From Pontibacillus chungwhensis (GTDB taxonomy: Bacteria; Bacillota; Bacilli; Bacillales; BH030062), in contig NZ_CP126446.1 of the NCBI RefSeq assembly GCF_030166655.1, positions 3,286,001 through 3,350,000 on the forward strand: 64,000 bases of DNA, written 5' to 3'. How positions within the stretch are numbered: position 1 is the first letter of the stretch; every line of letters begins with the position of its first letter. Shown here piece by piece: positions 37,515-50,673 of this stretch. A program made the position numbers and the translations under genes. The notes beneath the pieces were generated by a model. That model was not told the DNA's origin. It searched no databases and saw only the letters and a program-made list of their open reading frames with translations.

Positions 37515-38456
37515 ATGAAGAAAATGATTACAAGTTTAGTTATGGGAAGTGTCTTGCTTCTAGTCACTGCTTGTTCATCTAATAATCATAATGAATCATC
37601 TATAGAAGATTTAACGATCTATACATCAATTTATCCCATTGAATATTTCACAGAAGAGATAGGTGGTAATACAGTTGACGTAGAAACCATCTATCCACCA
37701 GGAGCAGACGCTCATACATTCGAACCCACCGCTAAAACGATGGCCCATTTAGCTGAGAGTGATGCTTTCTTCTATTTAGGTGCTGGGCTTGAGGGGTTTG
37801 CAGAAAGCGCTGCGGATGCGCTAGAGGGAGAAGATGTAACGCTTGCAGAACTAGGAACTCATGAATCTCTATTTGCTCACGGAGAAGGTCATGAAGAAAA
37901 ATCCGCTCATGAAGGACACACCCACGGAGATAAAGATCCACATATTTGGCTTGATCCTGTTCGTGCTCAAGAACTGGCTCAGTATATTAAAGAAGAATTA
38001 ATAGAATTAAATCCAGAAGATAAAGAAGTATATGAACAAAACTTTAAACATTTGAACCAACAACTCACCCAGCTTAACGAAGACTTTCAAAAAGCCGTTG
38101 CTCAGGCAGATAAGAAGCAATTTCTCGTAGCGCACGGAGCTTATGGGTATTGGGAGGAACGATACGGGGTTGAACAAATCTCTGTAAACGGTATTTCCCC
38201 AAGCAGTGAGCCGTCACAACAAGACATTGAGCATTTAATTGAATTAGGTAAGAAGGAAAATATGAACTATATGATCTTTGAACAAAATGTTTCCAATCAG
38301 GTGGCAACCATTATCCAGAACGAAATCGGCGCCAAGGCTTTATCCATTCATAATCTTTCGGTACGAACCCAGGAAGATATTGATGAAGGGGACAATTACT
38401 TTGACTTAATGCGCGATAATCTTGATGTGCTTAAAACCGCGTTAAATAGCAAATAG
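37515..38456 (+). CDS. znuA: ZnuA/AdcA-type zinc-binding lipoprotein
   Basis: 313 residues. Signal peptide with lipobox VTAC (Cys about 20). Cluster A-1 substrate-binding fold with zinc ligands in DAHTFEPT, the DPHIWLDP strand, and VAHGAYGYW. A His-rich acidic loop (HGEGHEEKSAHEGHTHGD) before DPHIW is the mark of zinc, not manganese, binders. Membrane-anchored; feeds ZnuBC. First gene of znuA-C-B-zur. Confidence 0.94.
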   Translation: MKKMITSLVMGSVLLLVTACSSNNHNESSIEDLTIYTSIYPIEYFTEEIGGNTVDVETIYPPGADAHTFEPTAKTMAHLAESDAFFYLGAGLEGFAESAADALEGEDVTLAELGTHESLFAHGEGHEEKSAHEGHTHGDKDPHIWLDPVRAQELAQYIKEELIELNPEDKEVYEQNFKHLNQQLTQLNEDFQKAVAQADKKQFLVAHGAYGYWEERYGVEQISVNGISPSSEPSQQDIEHLIELGKKENMNYMIFEQNVSNQVATIIQNEIGAKALSIHNLSVRTQEDIDEGDNYFDLMRDNLDVLKTALNSK

Positions 38457-38473
38457 AAGGAGGTTCCATCACA

Positions 38474-39229
38474 TTGCCTACACCCGTATTAGATATTAAA
38501 GATGTCAGTTATTCCTATGAACAAAGAGATGTACTAGAGCACATTGACTTTACCATTCAGCCAGGTAGCTTTGTTGGCCTAGTTGGCCCAAACGGCTCAG
38601 GAAAAACCACGTTAATTAAACTGATCCTTGGACTCATGCACCAAAAACGAGGAGAGATTAACTTATTCGGAAAGCCTATAGATAAATTTAAAGAATGGGA
38701 CCGAATTGGCTTTGTCTCTCAGAAGGCCAACAGTTTTAATAGTGGTTTCCCAGCAACTGTCTATGAAGTTGTATCAATGGGTTTAACATCTAAAGTTGGT
38801 TATTTTCGATTCTTTAAGAAAAAACACGAGGAAAAGATTAAAGAAGCCGTAGAGTTGGTTGGTATGAGTGACTACCTTTATCAGAATATTGGCGACCTAT
38901 CAGGTGGACAACAGCAGCGTATCTTTATCGCCAGAGCTCTTGTCAGCGAGCCTGATTTCTTAATCTTAGATGAGCCGACGGTCGGAGTAGACACAGAAAA
39001 TGTGCATCGCTTTTATAAAATGCTCGCTGATTTAAACAGAAATAAAGGGATTACCTTACTTCTTGTTACTCATGACATCGGTACAATGACTTCATACGCA
39101 AGCGATATAGCCTGCCTGAACAAACAAATCCATTTTCACGGTGATCCAGAGTCATTTAATGATTTAAATGATCAAGATCTATCAAATATATACGGTCACC
39201 CCGTTCACGCTGTGACCCACGACCATTAG
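38474..39229 (+). CDS. znuC: ZnuC, zinc ABC ATP-binding protein
   Basis: 251 residues. Walker A GPNGSGKTT, signature LSGGQQQRIFIARAL, Walker B FLILDEPTVGVD, H-loop LLVTHD. It ends in a His-containing tail (YGHPVHAVTHDH) that is common in zinc ABC ATPases. Starts with TTG, 10 bases after AGGAGG. Lies 17 bases after znuA. Confidence 0.93.
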   Translation: MPTPVLDIKDVSYSYEQRDVLEHIDFTIQPGSFVGLVGPNGSGKTTLIKLILGLMHQKRGEINLFGKPIDKFKEWDRIGFVSQKANSFNSGFPATVYEVVSMGLTSKVGYFRFFKKKHEEKIKEAVELVGMSDYLYQNIGDLSGGQQQRIFIARALVSEPDFLILDEPTVGVDTENVHRFYKMLADLNRNKGITLLLVTHDIGTMTSYASDIACLNKQIHFHGDPESFNDLNDQDLSNIYGHPVHAVTHDH

Positions 39230-39242
39230 TGGAGGAATCTTT

Positions 39243-40094
39243 ATGTTATCAAGCTTTTTACAATATGAATTTTTAAGAAACGCACTATATACAGGGTTAC
39301 TGATCGGGTTCATTGGACCGCTCTTAGGAACGTTCGTTGTTGTTAGGAGACTTTCTTTAATTGCGGATGCCCTTTCCCATGTGACCTTATCTGGCATTGC
39401 CTTTGGTCTTATGCTTGATAAGAAATTCGGTGTTGGGATTAGTCCCTTCTATGCCGGAATGAGTTTCTCCGTTATCGGCTCTGTCTTCATTGAACAACTC
39501 AGACGCGTGTACAAAGCCTATCAAGAATTAGCGATTCCAATTATATTATCAGGCGGGGTTGGCTTAAGTGTTATCTTTATCTCTCTTGCCAATGGTTTTA
39601 ATACAGATTTATTCAATTATTTATTCGGTTCTGTGACAGCTGTCAGTCGTCAAGATTTATGGACAATTCTTATTGTAGCTGTTGTGGTTACGGCGCTCAT
39701 TGGTTTATTCTATAAAGAATTGTTTATGCTCTCGTTTGACGAAGAACACGCTGTTGTTTCAGGTATTCATGCAAGACGCATTCATTTCCTTTTTATCGTC
39801 TTAACAGCTCTGGTTATTGCTGCTTCTATCCGAATTGTTGGGGTCTTACTGGTATCAGCTCTCATGACCTTACCTGTAGCTGCGAGTATTCGGATTGCCC
39901 GCGGATTTAAGCAAGCCATTCTTTTATCGATTGTATTTGGTGAAATTTCGGTGATTAGCGGGCTCATCTTCGGCTATTATTTCGAAATTCCTCCCGGTGG
40001 CACCATCGTTTTAACGTCTATCTTAATCTTAGTAGTGACCATCCTTGTGAAGAAAGGAATCCAACGTACACGTACAAAGAGGGTGAAAACGTGA
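39243..40094 (+). CDS. znuB: ZnuB, zinc ABC permease
   Basis: 283 residues with 8-9 spans, ABC-3 family: RRLSLIADALSHVTLSGIAFG is the conserved ATPase-contact and metal-entry region. The basic C-terminus (IQRTRTKRVKT) is cytoplasmic. It overlaps zur by 4 bases (GTGA). Confidence 0.94.
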   Translation: MLSSFLQYEFLRNALYTGLLIGFIGPLLGTFVVVRRLSLIADALSHVTLSGIAFGLMLDKKFGVGISPFYAGMSFSVIGSVFIEQLRRVYKAYQELAIPIILSGGVGLSVIFISLANGFNTDLFNYLFGSVTAVSRQDLWTILIVAVVVTALIGLFYKELFMLSFDEEHAVVSGIHARRIHFLFIVLTALVIAASIRIVGVLLVSALMTLPVAASIRIARGFKQAILLSIVFGEISVISGLIFGYYFEIPPGGTIVLTSILILVVTILVKKGIQRTRTKRVKT

Positions 40095-40498
40095 ATTTAA
40101 ATCAAGCACTTGAAGAATTAAAAGAAAAAGGTCATAAGTATACAGATAAACGGGAAGATCTGTTACGCTTTTTCTATGAACAAAATGGTTACCGAACAGC
40201 TCGTGATGTGAAAGCAATGATGGAAGATAAATACCCAGGTATTAGTTTCGATACGATCTACCGCAATCTACACTTGTTCGTTGAGTTAGAATTGTTAGAG
40301 GTAACAGATCTTGAGGGTGAAAAGCACTTCCGTATGAAATGTGAGTCCAAGCACCACCATCATTTCATTTGTCTAGATTGCGGGAAAACAAAAGAAATTC
40401 ACACTTGCCCGATGCAACAGGTCTCAGGTGAACTAAAAGACTATGATGTAGAAAATCATAAATTTGAGATTTATGGAAAATGTCCGGCATGTAAATAA
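40091..40498 (+). CDS. zur: Zur, Fur-family zinc-responsive repressor
   Basis: 135 residues. Winged-helix N-terminus (KYTDKREDLLRFFYEQNGY, then ISFDTIYRNLHLFVELELL) and a His/Cys domain: HHHHFICLDCGKTKEI plus CPAC at the C-terminus, giving the structural zinc site C94, C97, C131, C134. Being the fourth gene of the zinc uptake operon behind two Zur boxes, it is probably autoregulated. A Fur or PerR identity is less likely given the context. GTG start overlapping znuB. Confidence 0.93.
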   Translation: MNLNQALEELKEKGHKYTDKREDLLRFFYEQNGYRTARDVKAMMEDKYPGISFDTIYRNLHLFVELELLEVTDLEGEKHFRMKCESKHHHHFICLDCGKTKEIHTCPMQQVSGELKDYDVENHKFEIYGKCPACK

Positions 40499-40546
40499 GA
40501 AGGGATTCGACTCTCTTCTCTATAAAAGGGAGTGAACGATAAAACC

Positions 40547-40930
40547 ATGTTTATGTACCTTGCGATTTTTATAGGAGGTGCTGTGGGGTCTTCTTTACGA
40601 TTCATCGTCTCTTTGTGGATTGAAGAGGCGTCTGTGTTTCCATACGAGACGCTTCTTGTTAACCTCATTGGCTGCTTTATCCTTACTTATCTAAGCACTC
40701 ACCCAACTCTTATGAGCAAGTTTTCTTCTTCTGTTAAGGTTGGAATCAGTACAGGACTGATTGGATCATTTACAACCTTTTCAACTTTCTCCACCGAAAC
40801 CTTACAGCTATGGCTCCATACTTCGCACATTCTAGCATTGATGTATGTGCTTATTAGCCTTGCAGGAGGATTAACCTTAAGCTGGCTAGGATTCTTTACT
40901 GCTCACAGTCGAAAGGAGCATGTAAAATGA
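40547..40930 (+). CDS. crcB: CrcB/Fluc fluoride channel subunit 1
   Basis: 127 residues from the ATG at 40547; a GTG at 40532 is possible but sits on the ribosome site. Four spans, with GGAVGSSLRF at the start, NLIGCF, and the Fluc signature GLIGSFTTFSTFSTE carrying the pore phenylalanines. Forms a dual-topology or heterodimeric fluoride channel with the next gene (family knowledge). It overlaps crcB2 by 4 bases. Confidence 0.92.
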   Translation: MFMYLAIFIGGAVGSSLRFIVSLWIEEASVFPYETLLVNLIGCFILTYLSTHPTLMSKFSSSVKVGISTGLIGSFTTFSTFSTETLQLWLHTSHILALMYVLISLAGGLTLSWLGFFTAHSRKEHVK

Positions 40931-41286
40931 TGTTTGCCTATGTAGCGCTAGGAGGCGGACTCGGTGCTCTTTGTCGATTCTTTTTAAGTGACTTCTTTAA
41001 TTCAAAGGGTTCGATTCCTTATGGAACTTGGCTAGCCAATATAGTTGGTTCGTTGCTCTTAGCTGGATTCATTGTACTTAGAACAAAAGAGGTTCTTCCA
41101 GAGTCCATCTGGCAACTCGCAGGTGTAGGGTTTTGCGGAGCTTTTACAACCTTTTCGACTTTTGGAAAGGAGACCATTCAGCTCTTGCAAACCAACAGAA
41201 TAAAGGAAGCCCTACTCTATGTAGCGTCTAGTCTGATCATAAGCCTGAGTGTTGTATGGCTCACCTTCTCCCTGTTTATAAAATGA
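40927..41286 (+). CDS. crcB: CrcB/Fluc fluoride channel subunit 2
   Basis: 119 residues, four spans: GGLGALCRFFLSD, NIVGSLLLAG, GFCGAFTTFSTFGKE. Overlap ATGA with crcB1 points to coupled production of a heterodimeric channel, as in B. subtilis and other Firmicutes. No fluoride riboswitch is visible upstream of the pair. Confidence 0.92.
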   Translation: MMFAYVALGGGLGALCRFFLSDFFNSKGSIPYGTWLANIVGSLLLAGFIVLRTKEVLPESIWQLAGVGFCGAFTTFSTFGKETIQLLQTNRIKEALLYVASSLIISLSVVWLTFSLFIK

Positions 41287-41292
41287 ATGGTA

Positions 41293-41335
41293 AAAGCGCC
41301 CTTTCCTAATTAGCTCTTTTAGGAAAGGGCGCTTT
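41293..41335. terminator. Bidirectional terminator (crcB pair / glutaredoxin-like gene)
   Basis: A 17-bp stem AAAGCGCCCTTTCCTAA with its complement, loop of 7-9 bases. Confidence 0.9.
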
Positions 41336-41336
41336 A

Positions 41337-41606
41337 TTAATGAATAACCCGGTTAATAGTAGATTTATTCGTGACATATCCCGAAAACACGGCACGCTTC
41401 TTTTTCCCAAACATACTCTTTTTGTCCACGATGATGGCCGGTGTAATGTTTGTGCCTGTGATCCCAAGTAATTCACTTTCTAAATCATTGGAATGACTAA
41501 TATCAATCTCATGATATGGTATTTGATCAGCTGATAGGTATTCTTTCAATGACTGGCTTTCATCGCATCCGGACCGGGTATAAATATAAATCGCTTTGCT
41601 CCCCAT
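41337..41606 (-). CDS. Glutaredoxin-like protein with a single Cys (CDES)
   Basis: 89 residues from the ATG at 41606 (AAAGGAGGG 7 bases before). Small thioredoxin-fold protein: KAIYIYTRSGCDESQSLKEY, GTNITPAIIVD (cis-Pro), FSGYV. The usual CxxC is CDES, keeping only the first Cys, so a monothiol or non-redox role is likely. Function unknown. Confidence 0.8.
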   Translation of the reverse strand: MGSKAIYIYTRSGCDESQSLKEYLSADQIPYHEIDISHSNDLESELLGITGTNITPAIIVDKKSMFGKKKRAVFSGYVTNKSTINRVIH

Positions 41607-41896
41607 GGAATTTCCCTCCTTTATGCAAGTATATGAACTTACCAAAAGCTACATGAGACAAAAACATTTTCAAACGATAGTGGAAATTCCATTATTAGGT
41701 CGTAAACGCGTATTGTTAATCGAATTACATATATATTTCCATTTTAGTATAGTAGTAAAACATATTTGTGCGGATTTTTTTAGTATTTGTTCTGTTAAGC
41801 AGTCTTATAAGGAAAAACTATAACTTTAATAGAGCCATTTATTATAGTAAAGGCATAAAAATAAGCCTTTTTTCTTCGATAGAAAAAAGGCTTCTC

Positions 41897-42667
41897 TTAT
41901 GCTCCATATCGATGGAGGGCTTCTTGTAATGAAGTAACAAATGATAAGTTAAAACGAATTTGTAAATGATGGAGCCGTTGGGCTTGAGATGGTTTAATCC
42001 CTACAATCACAATCTTCTTACCCATGTAAAGTAAACTCGTGAAGATGTCTTTCAGCACAGATACCCCGTCTTGGTGCATTTCTCCTACAGCTGTAAAATC
42101 AAACAATAAACAATCTGTTTCATGCGTATGGGCCTTCAAAAGTACTTGATCTTTAATCGTAAATAGCTTCTCTTCTGAAATATCACCAAACAAAGGAATC
42201 AAGGAGATTTCTGAAGTAAGCTGAATGAAGGGAGCAGATAACAAATTATTTTGATGAATCGCATCTTCTAGCTTTTCTTTTTCTTCTAACAGCTCGAAAT
42301 TTGTTTCATTTAAACGATTTTGCAATCGGTCCAGCATCTTACTTACGTGCTGGTTCTGCCCTTCTTTAGGAATGATCATAATTTCAGCCTGTAGATCATT
42401 TGCCCATTTCACATAAAGATCCACAAGTTCGACTTGTTTAGAGGCGGTAATGACATTAACCTCCACTTTAACTTTAGGCAGAGTGGGAACAATCCAATCC
42501 TTTACTTTCTTATGACTAGCTTCTTCTATGATTTCCCATAAAGAAGGAGTCAGATGAAACATCTCACTCGCTTCTTGCGTGTATTCAAGAATCGTATATT
42601 TTTTATTAATGGTTAGGGAGGGAACTGGAAAGTGATTGTTAACTTGTCGCATTAATGTCTTCTTCAT
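41897..42667 (-). CDS. STAS-domain protein, RsbR-like, last gene of the B12 module
   Basis: 256 residues. N-terminal ~120 residues may be a sensor-like domain (VPSLTINKKYTILEYTQEAS has a PAS-like start). A coiled-coil linker (about 120-145: DRLQNRLNETNFELLEEKEK) leads to a C-terminal STAS domain: PLFGDISEEKL, CLLFDFTAVGEMHQDGV, MGKKIVIVGIKPSQAQRL. This is the layout of stressosome RsbR paralogues; the phospho-Ser/Thr position is in DFTAVGEMHQ and is not the standard one. Overlaps the B12 gene by 29 bases (start ATG at 42667, or 42652). Confidence 0.8.
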   Translation of the reverse strand: MKKTLMRQVNNHFPVPSLTINKKYTILEYTQEASEMFHLTPSLWEIIEEASHKKVKDWIVPTLPKVKVEVNVITASKQVELVDLYVKWANDLQAEIMIIPKEGQNQHVSKMLDRLQNRLNETNFELLEEKEKLEDAIHQNNLLSAPFIQLTSEISLIPLFGDISEEKLFTIKDQVLLKAHTHETDCLLFDFTAVGEMHQDGVSVLKDIFTSLLYMGKKIVIVGIKPSQAQRLHHLQIRFNLSFVTSLQEALHRYGA

Positions 42668-43286
42668 TCCCCTCTATCCATGTTTCTAATTGATGTAAAT
42701 CTTTCATCACAACAACCCGTTCAGAAGCAAATGAACTTAAATCATATTCTTTCGCCATTCGGCCTCCTATTAACACTGTCGGCGACCACTCAAGGCGAGT
42801 TAAATGTTCAATCACTTCTTTTAGAACTGGGAGTCGATAAGACAAAGCAGCTGATACTCCAACCACATCTGGTTTATATCGATTCACTTGTTTCAGTGCG
42901 TGATCAAGGGGCAGGTTCGGTCCAAGATACCTGACATTCCACCCATACTCTCTAAAAGTAGAAGCGACCATTTTTAACCCCAGATAATGTTGTTCTTCTT
43001 CAATGCCAAATAACAATACCTTACTAGCATTCTGTTCGGATGCACGCTTCTTCATACTATCAAGCTGAGAAAGGACAAAATCACATACAGCTGTAGCTAA
43101 GTGCTCATCCGCTACGGAAATCTCATTGCGCTCCCAAAGATCCCCAATGTGATACATAGTCGGAGTAAGGAATTGCTCGTACAGATGAAGCCGATTTGGT
43201 GTTGTCCCCATTTGGGACAAATAGTGAACGGCATCATCTTCATTTCCTTCAAGAAATAACTTTGCAAGCTTAGAAAAATCGTCCAT
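42639..43286 (-). CDS. Cobalamin-binding protein with CarH-type signature, no DNA-binding domain
   Basis: 215 residues. A four-helix cap (about 1-80) has W51-x9-E61-H62, the Wx9EH signature of CarH/LitR-type adenosylcobalamin photoreceptors. The Rossmann B12 domain (about 88-205) has ExxHxxG with axial His H100 (EEEQHYLG), then GPNLPLD, PDVVGVSAAL and VLIGGRMAKEY. No MerR helix-turn-helix precedes the cap, so it cannot act on DNA alone. Placed 11 bases after the helical gene and overlapping the STAS gene, it probably signals through them. Light sensing is inference. Confidence 0.82.
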   Translation of the reverse strand: MDDFSKLAKLFLEGNEDDAVHYLSQMGTTPNRLHLYEQFLTPTMYHIGDLWERNEISVADEHLATAVCDFVLSQLDSMKKRASEQNASKVLLFGIEEEQHYLGLKMVASTFREYGWNVRYLGPNLPLDHALKQVNRYKPDVVGVSAALSYRLPVLKEVIEHLTRLEWSPTVLIGGRMAKEYDLSSFASERVVVMKDLHQLETWIEGNEEDINATS

Positions 43287-43297
43287 CTCCTCACCCC

Positions 43298-43657
43298 TTA
43301 CTCATTTGTTGCTCTCAAAAATTCAATACCATTCTTTAGATAGGACTGATAGGCTTTTTGTTCATCATGATCTTCAAGCCCCTCAAGGTGTCGATACAAC
43401 CGCTCATAATTATCAATAATTAATTCCGTGCCTACATCGCGGCTTGTTAATACCGTTTGCAACCACTTCGTATAATCCATAAAAAACTGCTCTTCTCCCA
43501 TTTCGTATGTTGTTGAGAGATGGTCTAAATGGTGATAATTATCCTCTTTTGTTCGTTTTCGACCATTTTCACCGAAACGTTCCCATAAAAAAGGATACGC
43601 CTCATAGATTTCGTTCACGATTTGATCAACAATGTGTTCTCGTTCTGAAGCTTTCAT
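43298..43657 (-). CDS. Small helical protein of the B12 module, resembling RsbRD/B12-sensor N-terminal domains
   Basis: 119 residues, all helical: FLWERFGENGRKRTKEDNYH, then HLDHLSTTYEMGEEQFFMDY, TKWLQTVLTSRDVGTELIID, YERLYRHLEGLEDHDEQKAY. The pattern HLxxL...F.DYxxWxxxxLxxR resembles the helical N-terminal domain fused to B12-binding sensors and to RsbRD-type proteins in other bacteria (from memory). Here it would be a free-standing version of that domain. Ends 11 bases before the B12 gene; overlaps the ABM gene by 4. Confidence 0.7.
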   Translation of the reverse strand: MKASEREHIVDQIVNEIYEAYPFLWERFGENGRKRTKEDNYHHLDHLSTTYEMGEEQFFMDYTKWLQTVLTSRDVGTELIIDNYERLYRHLEGLEDHDEQKAYQSYLKNGIEFLRATNE

Positions 43658-43959
43658 TCCGCCACCACTTTAAACTTTTTAACTTTCGGAGGAATGTTAG
43701 CAAGCGCTTTGTCAGGATAATTCTTCTCCAGTTCGTGTATTTTCTGGAACTCCTCACTTGTTGCCCATTTCATATAATGAGCCTTGGATTCCCATTCCAT
43801 ATGAACAGTTAATTCCCCAGGCTTTTTGTCGTTTTGAAGAAGTTGAAAAGAGCGAAAACCTTCCCATTGATCAACGCTCTTTGATCGGTTTTGATAAATC
43901 TCTATTAATTCATCTGCTTTTTCCTCTGGAACCACCACAGTAGAGTCAACGATATACAT
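43654..43959 (-). CDS. ABM-fold monooxygenase-like protein (HmoA/IsdG-related), first gene of the B12 module
   Basis: 101 residues, ferredoxin-like ABM fold. W65 and H75 have the 10-residue spacing of IsdG-type haem oxygenases (KWATSEEFQKIHE), and EWES precedes. The third catalytic residue of IsdG (Asn near position 7) is replaced by Ser/Thr (VDST). It could degrade haem, act on another substrate, or just bind a tetrapyrrole. Overlaps the next gene by ATGA. An AT-rich Fur/PerR-like palindrome lies upstream. Confidence 0.75.
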   Translation of the reverse strand: MYIVDSTVVVPEEKADELIEIYQNRSKSVDQWEGFRSFQLLQNDKKPGELTVHMEWESKAHYMKWATSEEFQKIHELEKNYPDKALANIPPKVKKFKVVAE

Positions 43960-43984
43960 CTTATTTCTCCTTCAAGCTCATTTT

Positions 43985-43999
43985 TAATAATTATTATTT
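43985..43999. promoter_or_regulatory. Fur/PerR-like palindrome upstream of the B12 module
   Basis: TAATAATTATTATTT; minus strand AAATAATAATTATTA matches about 11 of 14 positions of the 7-1-7 Fur box TGATAATnATTATCA. It lies 26 bases before the first gene, near a possible TTGAAA -35. The region is nearly pure A/T, so weak evidence. Confidence 0.35.
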
Positions 44000-44084
44000 T
44001 ATCATATTTTCAAGATTTTTTTAAGAAAGGTGCTGGTGGCACGCTTTAGAAAAATCTGTCACTTCATCTATGTAGGAAAACAAG

Positions 44085-44119
44085 AAAAAACTCTGCAACT
44101 CACTGTTGCAGAGTTTTTT
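44085..44119 (-). terminator. Terminator of the VLRF1-like gene
   Basis: A 15-bp perfect stem AAAAAACTCTGCAAC and complement, 5-base loop, T runs on both strands. Confidence 0.92.
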
Positions 44120-44128
44120 CTTTCTTTA

Positions 44129-44932
44129 TTACAATACCACTTCGTTAAGCACGTGAGTTTCTTCATGCTCAAGAAGGTTCTTTGGAACATGCTCATCAAT
44201 AGGCTTATTCATATGAGCTTGGATTTCATCCGTTTCGTCCTGGTTACCTACCAGATAAATACGTTCCCACTGTCCATCTTTTGCTAATTTGTCTAATGTA
44301 GGCGCAAGGCTCTTATACCAGCGCTGCTGATTAGCACGGTAGCGGTCTTCAAATTTTTCTTTACCTGGGTTTTTCCCACCTGAACCCATAGAAGGTTGGG
44401 CATGGTGAGGACCAGTGTGTAAGCGCCAATCTTCTGTATTAAGATCTAATTCATAATATTTGATGTCATCTACTGCACCTAATTCAGCTTCAATGACCTT
44501 CACGTCGTTCTGCTGAACAAGCACAACCCCGGTTTTAGGGAACTCTTTATGAAGCTCATGCATTTGATCCAATACAGGTGCTTCTTCCCAGAAGAACTCT
44601 GTTTTAACCGGCATTTGCACGGGCTGAGCGTGCCATAGGGAACCGTCTGTTGACGCAAAAACAATTAAACTTTTAGAAAGATCACGTTCATAGTCTGTCA
44701 CATATGTTTCTAATTGTTCTTTTAGATTACGGAAGTTTTTTAATTCATCCTTGTCTCCGCTCTCTTGCAAGTAATGTTCAAAGTTATTCATTCCATTTTT
44801 GAAATGGATCTTCCATTCACCGCCCTGTTGTTCAGGGTCAGCTAAATCTGTATTTAAGTACATTGTAAGTACTCGTTCAGGTTTTTCTGCATAGAAATTT
44901 TCTAGTTTCTTTAAGTCTTTTTGTAATGTCAT
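44129..44932 (-). CDS. VLRF1/aeRF1-like protein
   Basis: 267 residues. N-terminal VLTMYLNTDLADPEQQGGEW, then a Rossmann-like middle (SLIVFASTDGSLWHAQPVQM), PVLDQMHELHKEFPKTGVVL, and C-terminal ERIYLVGNQDETDEIQAHMN. This matches the bacterial VLRF1/Vms1-like family related to archaeal-eukaryotic release factor 1, thought to act on stalled ribosomes. No GGQ; a GSGGKNPG loop with many basic and aromatic residues is in the expected region. Stand-alone gene with its own terminator. Confidence 0.7.
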   Translation of the reverse strand: MTLQKDLKKLENFYAEKPERVLTMYLNTDLADPEQQGGEWKIHFKNGMNNFEHYLQESGDKDELKNFRNLKEQLETYVTDYERDLSKSLIVFASTDGSLWHAQPVQMPVKTEFFWEEAPVLDQMHELHKEFPKTGVVLVQQNDVKVIEAELGAVDDIKYYELDLNTEDWRLHTGPHHAQPSMGSGGKNPGKEKFEDRYRANQQRWYKSLAPTLDKLAKDGQWERIYLVGNQDETDEIQAHMNKPIDEHVPKNLLEHEETHVLNEVVL

Positions 44933-45112
44933 AATTAAACTCCACTCCTTATCGGGCTATTGAGTTTCTGCGTACTATCTATGTAACCGTAAAAAAGAGG
45001 GTTAAAACCTATAATCTAGTAAGTCTATTATGAAATGAAGTCAGATTAACTTTGTGAACAGCGGGTAATATAGAAATAAATCGCAAGAAGACATTCCATC
45101 GGGAGGGAAAAC

Positions 45113-45298
45113 ATGTTATACCTACTTGCTATTCTATTACCACCCATTGCGGTCTTGTTTGTAGGAAAACCCGTTCAAGCCATCATCAACTTAATACTTA
45201 CCATTTTAGGGGTTATTCCTGGTGCCATCCACGCTGTCCTTGTGGTTAAAGACCACAAAGATGATCAGCGTGCCAAAAAGTACGGAACAGTTGGATAA
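45113..45298 (+). CDS. YqaE/Pmp3-family membrane peptide
   Basis: 61 residues with two hydrophobic helices: LLAILLPPIAVLFVGKPVQA and LILTILGVIPGAIHAVLVV, then a charged tail. A Pmp3/UPF0057 protein, in yeast and plants linked to membrane potential and salt stress (family knowledge). GGGAGG lies 9 bases before the ATG and a strong terminator follows directly. It may support salt tolerance; unproven. Confidence 0.9.
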   Translation: MLYLLAILLPPIAVLFVGKPVQAIINLILTILGVIPGAIHAVLVVKDHKDDQRAKKYGTVG

Positions 45299-45302
45299 AT
45301 AG

Positions 45303-45339
45303 AAAAAAGGACTTTTCCTTAAGGGAAAAGTCCTTTTTT
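45303..45339. terminator. Bidirectional terminator (pmp3 / betaine-binding gene)
   Basis: A 16-bp perfect stem AAAAAAGGACTTTTCC and complement, ending in T runs both ways. Confidence 0.92.
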
Positions 45340-45350
45340 GTGTGCATTTG

Positions 45351-46241
45351 TTATTTTCCTAACCATTCGTTAATCAGTTCTTCGTTCTCATCTACCCATT
45401 TCTGAGCCCCTTCAGCTGGCTCATCAGCTTCTTTTACCATGTTCATTAAGCTTCCTAGCTGTTGATCGTCCATTTCCCAAGTGTTGATATACTCTGTCAC
45501 TTCAGGAAAGTCGTCTGTGAAACCTTGACGGGACATCCAAATAATATTTTCTTCATCGCCATATACATTCTTTGGATCTTCTAAGAACTTAAGCTCGTAT
45601 TCCGCAAACACCCAGTGAGGCTTCCAAAGCGTTACTAGGATTGGTTCTTCTTTACGAATCGATTCTCCAAGTTGAGTCGTCATAGCCGGTCCTGAAGAAG
45701 AAGCCGTAGTGTAATCTAAACCATATTCATCAAGAGCTTCATCCGTTAAGCCCATAAGACTTGAGCCTGGGTCGATCCCATAAATCTTACCATCTTCAAA
45801 CAAATCTTTATTGTCGTTTAATTCTTCAATGCTATTTACATCTACATAACTAGGTACTGCAAGTCCTAGAGTCGTACCATTAAACCAAGGTTGATCTTTA
45901 TGGAAATCCACATCTTCTTTGTAATCTTCATAGAAAGCTTCATCTGTGTGTGGTAACCATACTTCTAATGCAAGGTCTAAATCATCTGATTCAAGCGCCT
46001 GATATAAAGGCCCTTTTTCTGTCATATTTAATTTAACTGAATATCCTTCATCTTCTAAAATAATCTTCCACATATTCGAAACTGCCACGTTCTCTGCCCA
46101 GTTATTCAAGCCAATTTCGATGGTTTTATCTTCCTTATCAGATCCATCCCCATCTCCTGAACTGGAATCATTTCCACAAGCTGCCAGCACAAGTAACATT
46201 CCGATAAAAAGTGCCGGGAGTATTCTTTTTAGTGCTTTCAT
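45351..46241 (-). CDS. Glycine-betaine/choline-type substrate-binding lipoprotein (OpuAC-like), orphan
   Basis: 296 residues from the ATG at 46241 (GGGGGAA before). Lipobox LAAC (Cys about 23), acidic Ser/Gly/Asp linker, then OpuAC domain: IGLNNWAENVAVSNMWKIIL, LALEVWLPHTDEAFYEDY, TLWKPHWVFAEYELKFL. Trp-rich aromatic cage residues (W in LNNW, VWLP, WKPHWVF) suit binding of betaine or another quaternary amine. No permease or ATPase is adjacent, so it must pair with one elsewhere. Fits a halotolerant lifestyle. Confidence 0.9.
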   Translation of the reverse strand: MKALKRILPALFIGMLLVLAACGNDSSSGDGDGSDKEDKTIEIGLNNWAENVAVSNMWKIILEDEGYSVKLNMTEKGPLYQALESDDLDLALEVWLPHTDEAFYEDYKEDVDFHKDQPWFNGTTLGLAVPSYVDVNSIEELNDNKDLFEDGKIYGIDPGSSLMGLTDEALDEYGLDYTTASSSGPAMTTQLGESIRKEEPILVTLWKPHWVFAEYELKFLEDPKNVYGDEENIIWMSRQGFTDDFPEVTEYINTWEMDDQQLGSLMNMVKEADEPAEGAQKWVDENEELINEWLGK

Positions 46242-46432
46242 GCGTATATTCCCCCAAAGTATTGTAGTAGTTTCATAAGTTTCATGCTTATCTATGTAAC
46301 TAACATGTCCGAATAAGCACAAAACTTATACTAACATGTATGATATGTGTTCGCAAGTTTCATTCCTTACATTTCCTTTTCTGAGAATCTTATAGAATTC
46401 TTAGGTTATATTTCATTGAATAGGGTGCTAAT

Positions 46433-46690
46433 GTGGCTCTCGCTCCCTTCCTTGAACTTGGGCCGCTACCAACTGATTCGAGCCAATTCTGCCTAACTTA
46501 AGCCGCTTCCGCCCCACTTAAGCCTCTCTCCCCTGACTTAAGTCGTTATTTTTTCCTCTTGAGCCGTTATGCGATTTTCTTAAGCCGTTCCCCACAAGCT
46601 TGAGCCGTTGCTCCCCCGCACGAGCCAATTCTAGCTAACTTGAGCCGCGCCCGCCCACTTGAGCCACTCCCCTCCGCTCGATTCTTATCC
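46433..46690. repeat. Array of about 12 degenerate ~20-bp units with CTTRAGCCG core
   Basis: Units recur every 18-23 bases, each opening CTTGAGCCG, CTTAAGCCG, TTCGAGCCA or a close variant, followed by a pyrimidine-rich variable part. Clear units begin near 46462, 46482, 46502, 46522, 46542, 46562, 46583, 46603, 46641 and 46660. The array lies in the gap between the betaine-binding gene and the GntR regulator, ends before the terminator at 46727, and has no open frame. Confidence 0.7.
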
Positions 46691-46720
46691 ATAACTTCCG
46701 CTCCCCCTCACATCGCTCAT

Positions 46721-46753
46721 AAAAAAACGCTTTAGCCTAAAGACTAAAGCGTT
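46721..46753 (-). terminator. Terminator of the GntR gene
   Basis: A 10-bp perfect stem AACGCTTTAG / CTAAAGCGTT, 7-base loop, T7 run on the minus strand. Confidence 0.88.
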
Positions 46754-47462
46754 ATCCTCGTGTTTCTACAGTAAAATCAAAGAAAGTTGGCAAATATTTG
46801 GTTCTGCAATATTCCAGAGGAGACTGGTCGATCCCTAGTGTAATTCTTGTCATATCAACTAACGGGTCCCCTGCTACGATGCCGAGGAAGTCAGCTTCAT
46901 ATGTATTCGCAAGAGAGGCTGAAACATATTCTTTAGAATAGTTTGGCTGCATTCCCTTCTCTTCTAGATGAGCATGGAAATCAAAAACGAGCAAATCCTC
47001 GTCCGTCAAACTCTCTACGATGTGTTCAGGTATAAAAAGTTGTTGAAAGGCGATCGGGACTCCATCTGCCAAGCGCAAACGCTCATACATGTAGACGGCT
47101 TGTTCTTCCGAAAGACCTAACATCTTTTTTGCATAGTCCATTTTCTTCCCATGAACGTTTCGTATGATTTGGACACTGAATTCAGTTCCTTTTTCTCGTT
47201 GAATAACGCCTGGATTTTTCACATGATCCGATGGCTTCTTCTTAACGGTCGTAGATTTCCCTCGTTTTGTTTCGAGTATCCCTTCTTGAGCTAATTGAGT
47301 AATCGCTTGCCTGATGGTAGAACGACTCACTTGATATTCCTGCATAAGCTGATTTTCAGAAGGTATTTTTTCACCGGGCTTCCAGCTCTGATTTTTAATG
47401 TTTTCAATAATGCTGTGTTTTACTTGAAGATAGTAAGGCACGCGATTTTGGCGTTGGGTCAT
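46752..47462 (-). CDS. GntR/HutC-family transcription regulator
   Basis: 236 residues from the ATG at 47462 (GGGAGGGGAAGG before). Winged helix: YYLQVKHSIIENIKNQSWKP, GEKIPSENQLMQEYQVSRST, IRQAITQLAQEGILETKRGK. The C-terminal UTRA ligand domain (about 90-235) includes YERLRLADGVPIAFQQLFIP and PLEYCRTKYLP. The ligand is a small metabolite, not identifiable. No sugar or amino-acid gene is next to it, so its target is unclear. Confidence 0.88.
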   Translation of the reverse strand: MTQRQNRVPYYLQVKHSIIENIKNQSWKPGEKIPSENQLMQEYQVSRSTIRQAITQLAQEGILETKRGKSTTVKKKPSDHVKNPGVIQREKGTEFSVQIIRNVHGKKMDYAKKMLGLSEEQAVYMYERLRLADGVPIAFQQLFIPEHIVESLTDEDLLVFDFHAHLEEKGMQPNYSKEYVSASLANTYEADFLGIVAGDPLVDMTRITLGIDQSPLEYCRTKYLPTFFDFTVETRG

Positions 47463-47509
47463 ACCCTTCCCCTCCCTTGCTTGTATAATCGAAAGACCTA
47501 TTATACCTA

Positions 47510-47545
47510 AAAAAGGACTTAATCCCAACAGATTAAGTCCTTTTT
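47510..47545 (-). terminator. Terminator of the 79-aa gene
   Basis: A 15-bp perfect stem AAAAAGGACTTAATC and complement with a 6-base loop. Confidence 0.9.
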
Positions 47546-47568
47546 ATCATTTGTTTTCCTTATGTTCT

Positions 47569-47808
47569 TTATACTTTCTCCACAATATAAGCTTTTTTAT
47601 TCCGATAATATTTCTCGCCATTATCAGAAGAGTGCTCAAAGAAACCTGCAAATTCGCCTGTTACTTTATACTCCCGATCAGGCTCTGTAAAGAGTTGGTT
47701 CTCATTACTAGATAGAAGCACAGCATCTGTTGTAGAAACAAAACTGTCTAGTTCTTGTGCAGAATAATTCTCCCCTTGTACAAGTTCACTTAATCGTTTC
47801 TCAGACAT
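47569..47808 (-). CDS. Small acidic protein, unknown (79 aa)
   Basis: MSEKRLSELVQGENYSAQEL, then LFTEPDREYKVTGEFAGFFE and YYRNKKAYIVEKV. Soluble, mixed beta pattern in the second half. AGGAGG precedes the start and a strong terminator follows, so it is very probably expressed. No family recognised. Confidence 0.75.
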   Translation of the reverse strand: MSEKRLSELVQGENYSAQELDSFVSTTDAVLLSSNENQLFTEPDREYKVTGEFAGFFEHSSDNGEKYYRNKKAYIVEKV

Positions 47809-47953
47809 GGTTAGCCTCCTAATATTAATTCTTAGTACTCACTTTCCCTGTTTCCTGGGAAGAATAAACATAAGGAACACATGCCTCTATTTTCCCTTTA
47901 CTTAATCTAGCGTATAATAGATGTAGCAAGTTGAGTAAAGGGAGAGGTAGACT

Positions 47954-48499
47954 GTGGCCATAAGATATGCCCTTCTCGGATTGTTGACGAAAGAACCTCA
48001 TTCTGGCTATGACTTACATAGCACATTTAAGACACAGCACATCTATTTTTGGAATTCTACTCATTCACAAGTGTATCAAGAGTTGAACAAAATGCGAGAT
48101 GAAGAGCTTGTCACATTTGAAACAATCGTCCAAGAAGGAAGCCCAAATAAGAAGTTATATACAATCACCCCAAAAGGGGAAAAACGTTTGATTGAATGGA
48201 TGATGGAAGAAGCCATCAAACCTGCCAAGATAAAAGACGAGTTTCTGCTTCGCGTTTCAGCATTTCAAGCAATCACTATTGATGAAGCTATCGCTTTGCT
48301 TGAAAGAATTTTAGCAAGGGAAAAAGCTATATTAGATGGCACCTCGAAATGGCAACAGGAACATTACGGAGAAGACGGTCCTCCGAATTACCTTCATATT
48401 GGTAGCTATCTGACTTCTGAATTTGGGAAACGATACGCTAAAATGTATGTAGAATGGTGCCAGTGGGCATTAGAAACACTAGAATCATATCGCACTTAA
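47954..48499 (+). CDS. PadR-family transcription regulator
   Basis: 181 residues from GTG at 47954 (GGGAGAGG before). PadR winged helix: IRYALLGLLTKEPHSGYDLH, VYQELNKMRDEELVTFETIV, KLYTITPKGEKRLIEW. The C-terminal ~90 residues form the dimerising helical domain of the PadR-s/AphA type (ISDALNLLERILAREKAI-like pattern). Ligand unknown, and the gene has no obvious divergent partner. Confidence 0.92.
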   Translation: MAIRYALLGLLTKEPHSGYDLHSTFKTQHIYFWNSTHSQVYQELNKMRDEELVTFETIVQEGSPNKKLYTITPKGEKRLIEWMMEEAIKPAKIKDEFLLRVSAFQAITIDEAIALLERILAREKAILDGTSKWQQEHYGEDGPPNYLHIGSYLTSEFGKRYAKMYVEWCQWALETLESYRT

Positions 48500-48584
48500 A
48501 TAGATCAGAACCTCGGTAATCGAACAACCACCTATTCCCGGTACTTGGAAATCCTAATAATAAAGGTTTCCTTTATTTCACTTG

Positions 48585-48620
48585 AAAAAGGAATCCGTCA
48601 AAAAAGACGAATTCCTTTCA
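48585..48620 (-). terminator. Terminator of katE
   Basis: A ~13-bp stem AAAGGAATCCGTC / GACGAATTCCTTT with one mismatch, 6-base loop, T-rich tail on the minus strand. Confidence 0.82.
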
Positions 48621-48630
48621 AGCTTTTTCC

Positions 48631-50673
48631 TTATAGGATTTGTCGATCCCAATGGCGGTGAGCAGCAATAGCCTTGCTGAACTCTTTCGCAAACTGGGTT
48701 GAGTCTTCCCCTGTAATGACACCGGCATGCCCTGCTAACCCTTCTTCTTTCAACCATTCAGTTCCTTTCTGACTAGCTCCAATTGGTTTAAAATGAGAGA
48801 AGGCCTCATGCATAAACGCATTAGCATCGCTACGGAACTTTTTGCTTACGCTTTCGCCACCTACAACGAAGATGCCATCAAATAATACAGAGTCAGCGGT
48901 TAAGAAGGTATGCTGTACTTCAAACGATTTACCATCTTTCCCTTTCTGCTCTCCAAACGTTTCCCCGATGATCGCAGATTGAATGCCATCAGATTTAAGA
49001 CTTTCAAGAATTTGTTCAAGTTCTCCCCCATCAAAATCTTCCCCTACTAAGACAGCAATTTTGCGCGTATCAGGTTTATAATTACTTTGCATTTGACTTA
49101 ATGCCGGCGAAGATTTCGTAACATTTGAACCACCTTCTTCAGGTGATTTCACCCCAATATTATTAGCTACCTCTTGTGCTAAAGACAGATTTATATTGGC
49201 TAACATATCAACAACTTGCTGCCTAACAGATTCATCTCCCACTTTACCCAGCTCAAAGCTAAAGGCTTGTGTGATATGACCTTTTTCAGGCTCACTCATA
49301 CTATTCCAAAACATTGTGGCTTGGGAGAAGTGGTCTTTAAAACTTTCACTTCTTGAACGAACTTTACGACCTTCTACTTTTTCTTCATAATGCTTGTACC
49401 CCCCAGCTTCTGGCGCTGCAGGAGTCGGAGTATTTTGAGCAAGTGAATTCTTGTGATAGGCTACTTGGCCCCGGTTAATCGTTTGACGGTGCATCCCGTC
49501 TCGCTGATTGTTATGAAATGGACAAACCGGCTTGTTGATCGGTAACTCGTGGAAGTTCGGCCCACCTAAACGAGTTAACTGAGTATCCGTGTAAGAGAAT
49601 AGTCGCCCTTGAAGCAATGGATCGTTAGAGAAATCAATGCCAGGCACTACATGCCCAGGATGAAACGCGACTTGTTCGGTCTCCGCAAAAACATTATCAA
49701 CGTTACGATTTAACGTCATCTTCCCAATAATCTTTACAGGAACTTCTTCCTCAGGCCACACTTTTGTAGGATCGAGTACATCAAAATCAAACTTAAATTC
49801 ATCTTCTTCCTCGATGACCTGAACACCTAATTCCCACTCAGGATAATCACCGTTTTCGATCGCCATGTATAAATCACCACGATGAAAGTCTGCATCCTTA
49901 CCAGAAATCTTCTGGGCTTCGTCCCATACTAATGAGTGCACACCAAGCTTTGGCTTCCAATGGAACTTAATGAAACGGGCTTTTCCTTCCTCGTTCACAA
50001 ACCGGAACGTGTGAACTCCGAACCCTTCCATCATGCGAAAACTACGAGGAATCGAACGATCAGACATCGCCCACATAGCCATATGAGCCGATTCTTGATT
50101 GTTCGCAATAAAATCCCAGAACGTATCATGGGCAGAAGCAGCTTGTGGCATCCCATTATGGGGTTCAGGCTTAAGAGCATGAACTAAATCAGGAAATTTA
50201 ATGGCGTCCTGAATAAAGAAGACAGGAATATTGTTACCAACCAGATCAAAGTTCCCTTCCTGGGTATAAAACTTTGTCGAAAAGCCTCTTACGTCTCGAA
50301 CCGTTTCAGATGACCCTTTGGAACCTGCAACTGTCGAGAAGCGTACAAAGACTGGAGTTTTCACAGAAGGATCTTGCAGGAAGTGAGCACTTGTGAGTTC
50401 TTTCATCGATTCGTATACTTCAAATTCTCCGTGTGCAGCATATCCTCGTGCGTGTACAGCTCGCTCAGGAATACGCTCATGATCAAAGTGAGTCATTTTC
50501 TCTCTAAAATGAAAGTCTTCCATTAATGTCGGACCACGTGCTCCCGCTTTTAAAGAAAATTCATCTTCAGAAACCTTTGTCCCCTGGTTCGTTGTCATAT
50601 CCTTTCCATGATCATCCACCTTATGCTGCTCTAACTGTTCATTCTTCTCATTCTCATGATTCTTGTTTGTCAT
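48631..50673 (-). CDS. katE: KatE, large-subunit (HPII-type) catalase
   Basis: 680 residues, the clade 2 size. Catalase core: catalytic His in [17 protein letters not shown], Asn in VGNNIPVFF, haem Tyr in [16 protein letters not shown]. The last ~150 residues form the DJ-1/PfpI-like domain ([31 protein letters not shown]) of HPII. In Bacillus the KatE type is a general stress/sporulation catalase; no sigma B promoter could be assigned here. Confidence 0.95.

Follow-up and report, generated by a model that had tools for sequence, protein, structure and literature searches.

A 64,000-nucleotide stretch of the Pontibacillus chungwhensis genome (NCBI RefSeq assembly GCF_030166655.1, contig NZ_CP126446.1, positions 3,286,001 to 3,350,000 of the forward strand), referred to here as the window, contains on its minus strand a four-gene operon that probably encodes a split photocobilin, a light sensor whose globin and B12-binding domain are separate proteins. 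The state of this sensor would be read by the product of the fourth gene and passed to the stressosome, a chain that, taken as a whole, appears moderately probable. The reading builds on the linkage of the genes, their homologies, the conservation of cofactor residues, the exchange of output domains among relatives, and co-occurrence with the stressosome protein RsbS, all of which are visible in the sequences. Gene 1 (43654..43959, 101 amino acids) is predicted to encode an ABM/IsdG-like protein, gene 2 (43298..43657, 119 amino acids) a stand-alone photoglobin-type globin, gene 3 (42639..43286, 215 amino acids) a CarH/photocobilin-type B12-binding protein without a DNA-binding domain, and gene 4 (41897..42652) a reader and output protein, whose first ATG lies at 42667 and whose start common to relatives lies at 42652.

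An original prediction, made from the window alone, had taken these four minus-strand genes for one operon, and both their open reading frames (ORFs) and their conserved order agree with it; the layout is that of a single tight operon. ORF coordinates give a 4-base overlap between genes 1 and 2, 11 bases between genes 2 and 3, and a 29-base overlap between genes 3 and 4. The predicted spacing therefore holds for the ORFs as listed, except that the last overlap becomes 14 bases if gene 4 starts at its second ATG, 42652, the position aligned in relatives (alignment of eight loci). Relatives were collected by scanning genome contigs with an alignment of gene 3, from which the best 80 of 124 loci were used. 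They include Pontibacillus, Halobacillus, Thalassobacillus, Evansella, Sporosarcina, Planococcus, Fictibacillus, and Peribacillus, among others, and the closest named ones are Pontibacillus contigs, with a gene 3 identity of 91%. Conservation of the gene order in many genomes had been set beforehand as a test, and all four gene profiles were matched in the same order and on one strand in 79 of the 80 loci, which is more than chance would be expected to give. The sole exception, L110, holds genes 3 and 4 without genes 1 and 2. Locus L086 has a broken gene 1, and in L113 both gene 1 and gene 3 are broken; these loci were left out of the gene 1 alignment (both) and the gene 3 alignment (L113). 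The overlap between genes 1 and 2 measures 4 bases in 69/79 loci and 1 base in 8/79. In L027, from a genus near the Pontibacillus of the window, gene 1 has decayed to a remnant and genes 2 to 4 are intact.

The distribution of the module was followed across a sample of 299 genomes of the order, at thresholds of E <= 1e-20 for gene 3 and E <= 1e-6 for gene 2. Gene 3 was matched in 137 genomes (48 of 116 genera), a count that includes at least two other B12 proteins (one CarH-like in G184, one fused with another domain in G049), and gene 2 in 124, including cases with only a paralog or a fragment (G038, G091, G109). Both genes occur together in 117 genomes; another 20 have only gene 3, 7 have only gene 2, and 155 have neither. 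The comparison of gene places covered 121 places for gene 2, from which paralogs and most fragments had been excluded, 153 for gene 3 among the matches listed, and 23 for rsbS chosen by eye.

The identification of gene 3 as an adenosylcobalamin (AdoCbl) protein deserves more confidence than the chain as a whole. Pfam recognizes a B12-binding_2 domain (5.3e-13) and a B12-binding domain (8.1e-16) and no MerR domain, which agrees with the earlier claim that the protein lacks this DNA-binding part and sets it apart from CarH, whose NCBIfam model it matches with 64 bits (cut-off 400). Its best relatives in the PDB are SasPcob (2.1e-15) and CarH (2.2e-11). The CarH-like site had been placed at W51, E61, H62, and H100; these residues are found there and, together with E98, are invariant in 80/80 proteins, so that gene 3 shares the cap and the E/DxH lower-ligand motif of photocobilins. 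Besides Asp270 and Trp296, discussed below, the available part of the photocobilin study (PMC10979010) names Trp61, Glu71, His72, His108, and His137 as photocobilin residues. In the PDB alignments, Trp61, Glu71, and His72 of SasPcob fall on W51, E61, and H62, His108 on H100, and His137 on H129; the numbering of the SasPcob PDB chain is that of the paper minus six, and the letters agree at all seven places. As an adenosyltransferase family match is present in 296/299 genomes, including that of the window, AdoCbl is probably available, and the same near universality makes this enzyme uninformative as a correlate of the module. A role for gene 3 as partner of a corrinoid methyltransferase was rejected, the NCBIfam scores being far below their cut-offs. 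The window genome also encodes, at L006:1423-2334 (G000 C1, about 2257916-2258827), a protein resembling full CarH, with a MerR start and the Wx9EH motif, so two B12 photosensors may coexist in this bacterium.

Gene 2 is, again with more confidence than the whole chain, best read as a globin of the photoglobin/phycobiliprotein type, and a second, bilin chromophore is likely for that reason. The original prediction had likened it to the helical first domain of RsbR-type proteins, a reading that does not hold: hhalign gives a probability of 0.1 (E 0.47) against the four RsbR first domains of the window genome, a thin control profile of only four divergent sequences, versus 97.3 (E 2.7e-11, 88 columns) against the globin portion of four photocobilins from Streptomyces. 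Searches of Pfam, NCBIfam, and PHROG returned no family for the window protein. When all PDB sequences were searched with a profile built from 8 relatives, five matches up to E 10 were obtained, the top two being SasPcob chains (0.025). With a profile of 81, seven matches appeared: SasPcob (0.0021 and 0.0022), phycocyanin alpha (0.018), AbPcob (0.15), and three unrelated proteins (0.34 to 0.68). Single members also match the Pfam family Phycobilisome (13/81, best 3.8e-4). A heme globin was considered and rejected, since no Globin family match was obtained and Protoglobin was matched by 2/81 members, at best with 0.013.

The candidate bilin site of this globin is strictly conserved. In the crystal structure of a photocobilin with biliverdin, as far as the accessible text of PMC10979010 goes, Asp270 contacts pyrrole rings A to C, and Trp296 contacts ring D and the corrin. 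The PDB alignments place SasPcob Asp270 on D39 and Trp296 on W65 of gene 2, and both are invariant in 80/80 proteins, as in the photocobilin globin. The phycobiliprotein attachment motif is given as CXRD in the part of PMC10151467 at hand; in the phycocyanin alignment, D39 falls on the Asp and T36 on the Cys of this motif, and window gene 2 reads TxED there, without the attachment Cys. Position 36 is Thr in 69/80 and Cys in 11/80 proteins, with the Asp in 80/80. Another 66 ORFs, among them four proteins from Streptomyces and some genes that were counted twice, have Cys there in 36 cases. Four full-length ORFs of these 66 lack D39, namely L169, L172, and L173, where no gene 1 adjoins, and L180, where gene 1 is divergent. 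The cases are few, and their direction, which is the one expected if gene 1 serves the bilin, suggests such a link. A second gene 2-like globin of the window genome (L164:2992-3357; G000 C1, about 2034565-2034930; profile E 2e-25) lies 3' of a PAS histidine kinase gene, assigned by Pfam, and 5' of an apparent aconitase gene, an order also seen at L166:1995-2363, and is possibly another bilin-globin input.

Gene 1 had been proposed as a tetrapyrrole enzyme or binder, and its predicted fold agrees: Pfam assigns it to ABM (1.4e-16), the fold of the IsdG family, and a profile of 32 chosen relatives finds 8avh (3.5e-9), IsdI (2.6e-7), and IsdG (1.7e-6) in the PDB. The best NCBIfam heme-degrading models score far below their cut-offs. 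S6, W65, and H75 are invariant in 78/78 proteins, the last two being the Trp and His of IsdG. Gene 1 stays with the globin gene, lying directly upstream of it in 18 of the 23 loci retrieved where gene 2 is apart from gene 3; the gene 1 of L171 and L180 is divergent. The HO-1 heme oxygenase family (PF01126) was matched in 0/299 order genomes and in 3/14 control genomes. The window genome does encode an HmoB-like protein (L231) with the full Asn-Trp-His triad, as read by eye. It is highly improbable that these genes form a heme-catabolism operon with a B12-dependent enzyme, signaling being incidental: gene 1 has the IsdG fold and gene 3 also resembles corrinoid methyltransferase proteins, but the operon encodes neither a methyltransferase nor any other B12 enzyme, the cap is made of photoreceptor residues, and gene 4, in the forms seen, always carries a signaling output or a shortened end. 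Distinctly unlikely, too, is a cofactor-level sensor without a role for light, which would inform the stress response of the state of heme, bilin, or AdoCbl through dark cofactor turnover. The IsdG-like partner suggests heme or iron metabolism, all sensor residues would suit ligand sensing equally, and the AdoCbl supply would allow it; however, the Wx9EH cap and the lower His are those of light-responsive proteins, and the pairing of a bilin-site globin with a B12 cap is that of photocobilins.

Gene 4 consists of a first domain of about 110 residues (42325..42652, minus strand, delimited by alignment with relatives), a coiled stretch, and a STAS domain (41918..42217, minus strand; Pfam 1.2e-7). 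As predicted, the STAS domain is of the stressosome type, but it is closest to YtvA rather than RsbR (PDB matches 1.6e-9 and 3.4e-6, respectively), reaches 57 bits against the closest NCBIfam model, that of YtvA (cut-off 250), and is exchanged for a kinase or GGDEF domain in relatives. The family searches that had been proposed for the four proteins thus found ABM in gene 1, both B12 domains in gene 3, and STAS in gene 4, but nothing in gene 2. No Pfam domain, PAS included, was matched in the first part of window gene 4, which distinguishes it from the LOV protein YtvA; 3/27 members match the PAS family PF00989, at best with 0.0025, and the domain is possibly PAS-like, though weakly. Its PDB matches, an engineered protein (4rzp, 2.5e-7 over 33 positions, with no stretch passing alone) and a chance match, were not used. 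In relatives, this same first domain is joined to HisKA/HATPase (Pfam tested in L138, L146, L160, and L186) or to GGDEF (L148 and L189, both matched only weakly by the profile of gene 4, with 6e-4 and 7e-7). In L125, L128, L130, L134, L136, L150, and L154, it is followed by a short helical end, in which no STAS, kinase ATPase, or GGDEF domain was found.

The link to the stressosome, held with less confidence than the chain as a whole, is suggested by co-occurrence. RsbS is present in 230/299 order genomes. Full-length STAS-type gene 4 is found in 97 genomes at 104 places, at least 101 of which are beside gene 3, and all 97 genomes carry RsbS (Fisher p 2e-14, ancestry being ignored); the count of 97 of 103 leaves out the kinase-type genomes G057, G070, G094, G181, and G206 and a remnant in G091. 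Six gene-3-positive genomes lack RsbS, of which G070, G157, G181, and G206 have the kinase form, G109 a broken globin-B12 frame beside GGDEF, and G184 the CarH-like protein. Gene 3 lies 6.7-8.8 kb from rsbS in at least 20 genomes of two families (places chosen by eye, opened in L224 to L226), a proximity that more likely reflects a shared chromosome segment than one operon. The window genome itself carries RsbR, RsbS, an RsbT-like gene, a LOV-like PAS-STAS protein, and a GAF-STAS protein. In three of four Streptomyces plasmid photocobilin loci opened (L119, L120, and L122), a STAS gene follows 3' with a 4-base overlap and a PP2C phosphatase gene lies 5'; STAS and PP2C proteins are among the proposed partners in the SasPcob interaction network (PMC10979010, in the portion available). 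By analogy, these neighborhoods are independent support from actinobacteria. At the remaining locus, L121:2257-5417, the photocobilin gene is directly upstream of gas-vesicle genes.

Several observations weigh against a bilin-bearing split photocobilin that feeds the stressosome. H129 of gene 3, the equivalent of the bilin-contacting SasPcob His137, is kept in only 52/80 proteins. Gene 2 was not matched in at least 20 of the genomes that carry gene 3. The unrelated Pfam family LPD22 is matched by 11/81 gene 2 members (best 1.6e-4), about as often as Phycobilisome. A serine, S6, occupies the position of the IsdG catalytic Asn in 78/78 gene 1 proteins. On the output side, the STAS domain of window gene 4 has Glu and Gln at the positions of the RsbR threonines phosphorylated by RsbT, which we take to be T171 and T205, placed by alignment with RsbR of the window genome. 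Ser or Thr occurs at these two positions in 11/81 and 7/81 gene 4 proteins, and gene 4, with neither both Thr nor an Rsbr_N-type globin domain before STAS, is not of the RsbR type. Lastly, the gene co-occurrence tests take no account of shared ancestry.

Some of these points would fit a B12-only light sensor, in which gene 3 alone senses green light or the AdoCbl level and the globin is bilin-free and structural or heme-handling, an explanation that we consider unlikely. L110 and the genomes without gene 2 keep the AdoCbl residues, with W51, E61, H62, and H100 of gene 3 present in 15/15 checked loci from genomes without a gene 2 match; the globin is therefore dispensable, an addition that can be lost, and AdoCbl is the core of the module. 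AbPcob, with His in place of Asp270, binds biliverdin poorly and is nonetheless light-active, according to the part of PMC10979010 at our disposal, and both the missing catalytic Asn and the missing HO-1-type enzyme in the 299 genomes point the same way. Against such a sensor stand the equivalents of Asp270 and Trp296, invariant in all 80 gene 2 proteins, the Cys at the bilin-attachment position in many relatives, and the tie of gene 1 to gene 2 even apart from genes 3 and 4 (18/23). H129 was also tried as a mark of bilin contact and set aside as confounded by lineage; it is present in 57/108 proteins beside gene 2, in 3/17 with gene 2 elsewhere, and in 2/15 without gene 2.

Characterized IsdG-family enzymes need the Asn-Trp-His triad and yield staphylobilin or mycobilin, not biliverdin, as stated in the available parts of PMC5557675 and PMC6018153. 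Because Ser replaces the catalytic Asn, gene 1 is not classed as an IsdG heme oxygenase; its product could be a modified enzyme or act as a carrier. Confidence in the identity of the bilin is lower than in the chain as a whole. It is a tentative and rather doubtful proposal that the second chromophore is an IsdG-type bilin (staphylobilin- or mycobilin-like) instead of biliverdin, supplied by gene 1 or by the HmoB-like enzyme encoded elsewhere in the genome and carried on the stand-alone globin, which in many Bacillales has the Cys used for attachment in phycobiliproteins, and that the resulting photoreceptor feeds the stressosome beside a blue-light LOV-STAS input.

As for the output, gene 4 STAS could instead act in another partner-switching or kinase pathway, with the RsbS link due to lineage only. 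Consistent with this are the kinase and GGDEF forms of related genomes, which also occur where RsbS is present (G057, G088, and G168), the lack of RsbT phosphosites, the confounding of RsbS co-occurrence by ancestry, and the lack of an RsbT-like or RsbW-like gene adjoining the operon in the window. Such an output is nevertheless improbable in view of RsbS in 97/97 STAS-type genomes versus 230/299 overall, the closeness of the STAS part to YtvA and RsbR, and the 6.7-8.8 kb between gene 3 and rsbS in two families.

In the mechanism proposed for the split photocobilin, gene 3 would form a dimer around adenosylcobalamin, with W51 as the cap, E61 and H62 across the interface, and H100 as the lower ligand. 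The gene 2 globin would dock on gene 3 and hold a linear tetrapyrrole, made, modified, or handed over by gene 1, against D39 and W65, extending light capture to the red. Light would break the Co-C bond, the adenosyl group would leave, and the resulting change in the shape of gene 3 would be sensed, through direct contact, by the first domain of gene 4. Its STAS domain would then modulate the RsbR-RsbS-RsbT stressosome and thereby sigma B, in the manner of the LOV-STAS protein YtvA, with an effect whose direction is likewise conjectural. In relatives, the same reader domain would drive a histidine kinase or a diguanylate cyclase.

Parts of this module resemble known systems, among which CarH-type AdoCbl photoreceptors, fused photocobilins, photoglobins, and BBAG-2 clusters have been described. 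Like CarH/LitR and AerR, gene 3 has an AdoCbl photoreceptor site, and AerR, like gene 3, has no DNA-binding domain of its own. Unlike in CarH/LitR, the output would run through a STAS, kinase, or GGDEF protein and not through a repressor. Photoglobins, reportedly described by Schneider et al. 2022 and cited in PMC10151467, are said to comprise a non-heme globin linked with B12-binding domains and signaling outputs. With photocobilins (SasPcob and AbDPcob; PMC10979010, in the part available), gene 3 shares the cap and ligand residues and gene 2 the homologous globin with the equivalents of Asp270 and Trp296. The globin and the B12 domain are fused there, whereas in the window and in the loci of relatives they are separate genes, and the operon adds an IsdG-like gene and a separate reader protein. 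A frame at L183:2387-3547 (G109) encodes the globin first and then the B12 domain, open to the middle of that domain and continued in another frame; it is apparently broken, has a GGDEF gene 3' of it, and shows a domain order opposite to that of the Streptomyces photocobilins. Separate globin and B12-binding genes are also found in the BBAG-2 clusters of Myxococcota and others, whose genomes have heme oxygenase and whose BBAG-2 binds biliverdin (PMC10151467, as far as available). Those clusters rely on an HO-1-type heme oxygenase and pre-PcyA, to go by the same portion of that source, in contrast to the Pontibacillus operon, with no HO-1 match in the 299 genomes, an IsdG-like gene, and a STAS reader. 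Gene 4 is similar to the LOV-STAS proteins YtvA and RsbL in having one small sensor domain before a STAS domain without RsbT sites, but it has no LOV domain, and the light-absorbing parts would be on other proteins. Gene 1 has the fold and the triad Trp and His of the heme monooxygenases IsdG and HmoB, from which it differs in the Ser at the catalytic Asn and in its tie to a globin gene. Within the literature searched, the four-gene Bacillales operon, the globin-tied IsdG-like gene, the reader as a protein of its own whose outputs can be exchanged, and the RsbS link are new, although Schneider et al. 2022 may include some of the sequences.

Expression signals around the operon, each a consensus match, include a sigma-A-type promoter (TTAAAA-17-TAAAAT with TG before the -10; 43996..44024, minus strand), which ends 37 bases upstream of gene 1, a terminator-like stem 3' of gene 4 (41863..41893, minus strand), and another between the preceding gene and the operon (44082..44122). 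The extended -10 pattern recurs in 63/78 upstream regions versus 22% of shuffles. Autoregulation by sigma B was rejected, a sigma-B-like pattern being present in 1/78 upstream regions, below the 7% shuffle rate, and so was an RNA switch, Rfam giving no match across window positions 38000-50000. The preceding gene (44129-44932) belongs to baeRF family 5 (1e-51) and also matches, weakly, a family of ribosome hibernation factors. The following gene (41337-41606) is glutaredoxin-like, nearest to Uxx-star proteins and below the cut-off, and two small neighboring membrane proteins (40532-41286) resemble, by eye, a paired fluoride exporter. The source genome comprises 4.17 Mb in two contigs.

If the proposed chain is true, a B12 photosensor module would be present in close to half of the Bacillales genomes sampled (137/299 with gene 3), in most of them together with a bilin-type globin, and a B12/bilin module would exist in bacteria without an HO-1 heme oxygenase match. 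Green and red light input would be added to the stressosome, which would make the module a candidate for the red-light effects on sigma B in firmicutes reported, in the excerpts of the literature available, for Bacillus and Listeria. It would also be a natural two-chromophore sensor with its parts already separate, useful for building light switches, and as one reader domain is joined to three output types, the signal path is directly testable. Should the reading of an IsdG-type bilin be true as well, bacterial IsdG-type bilins would have a role in signaling.

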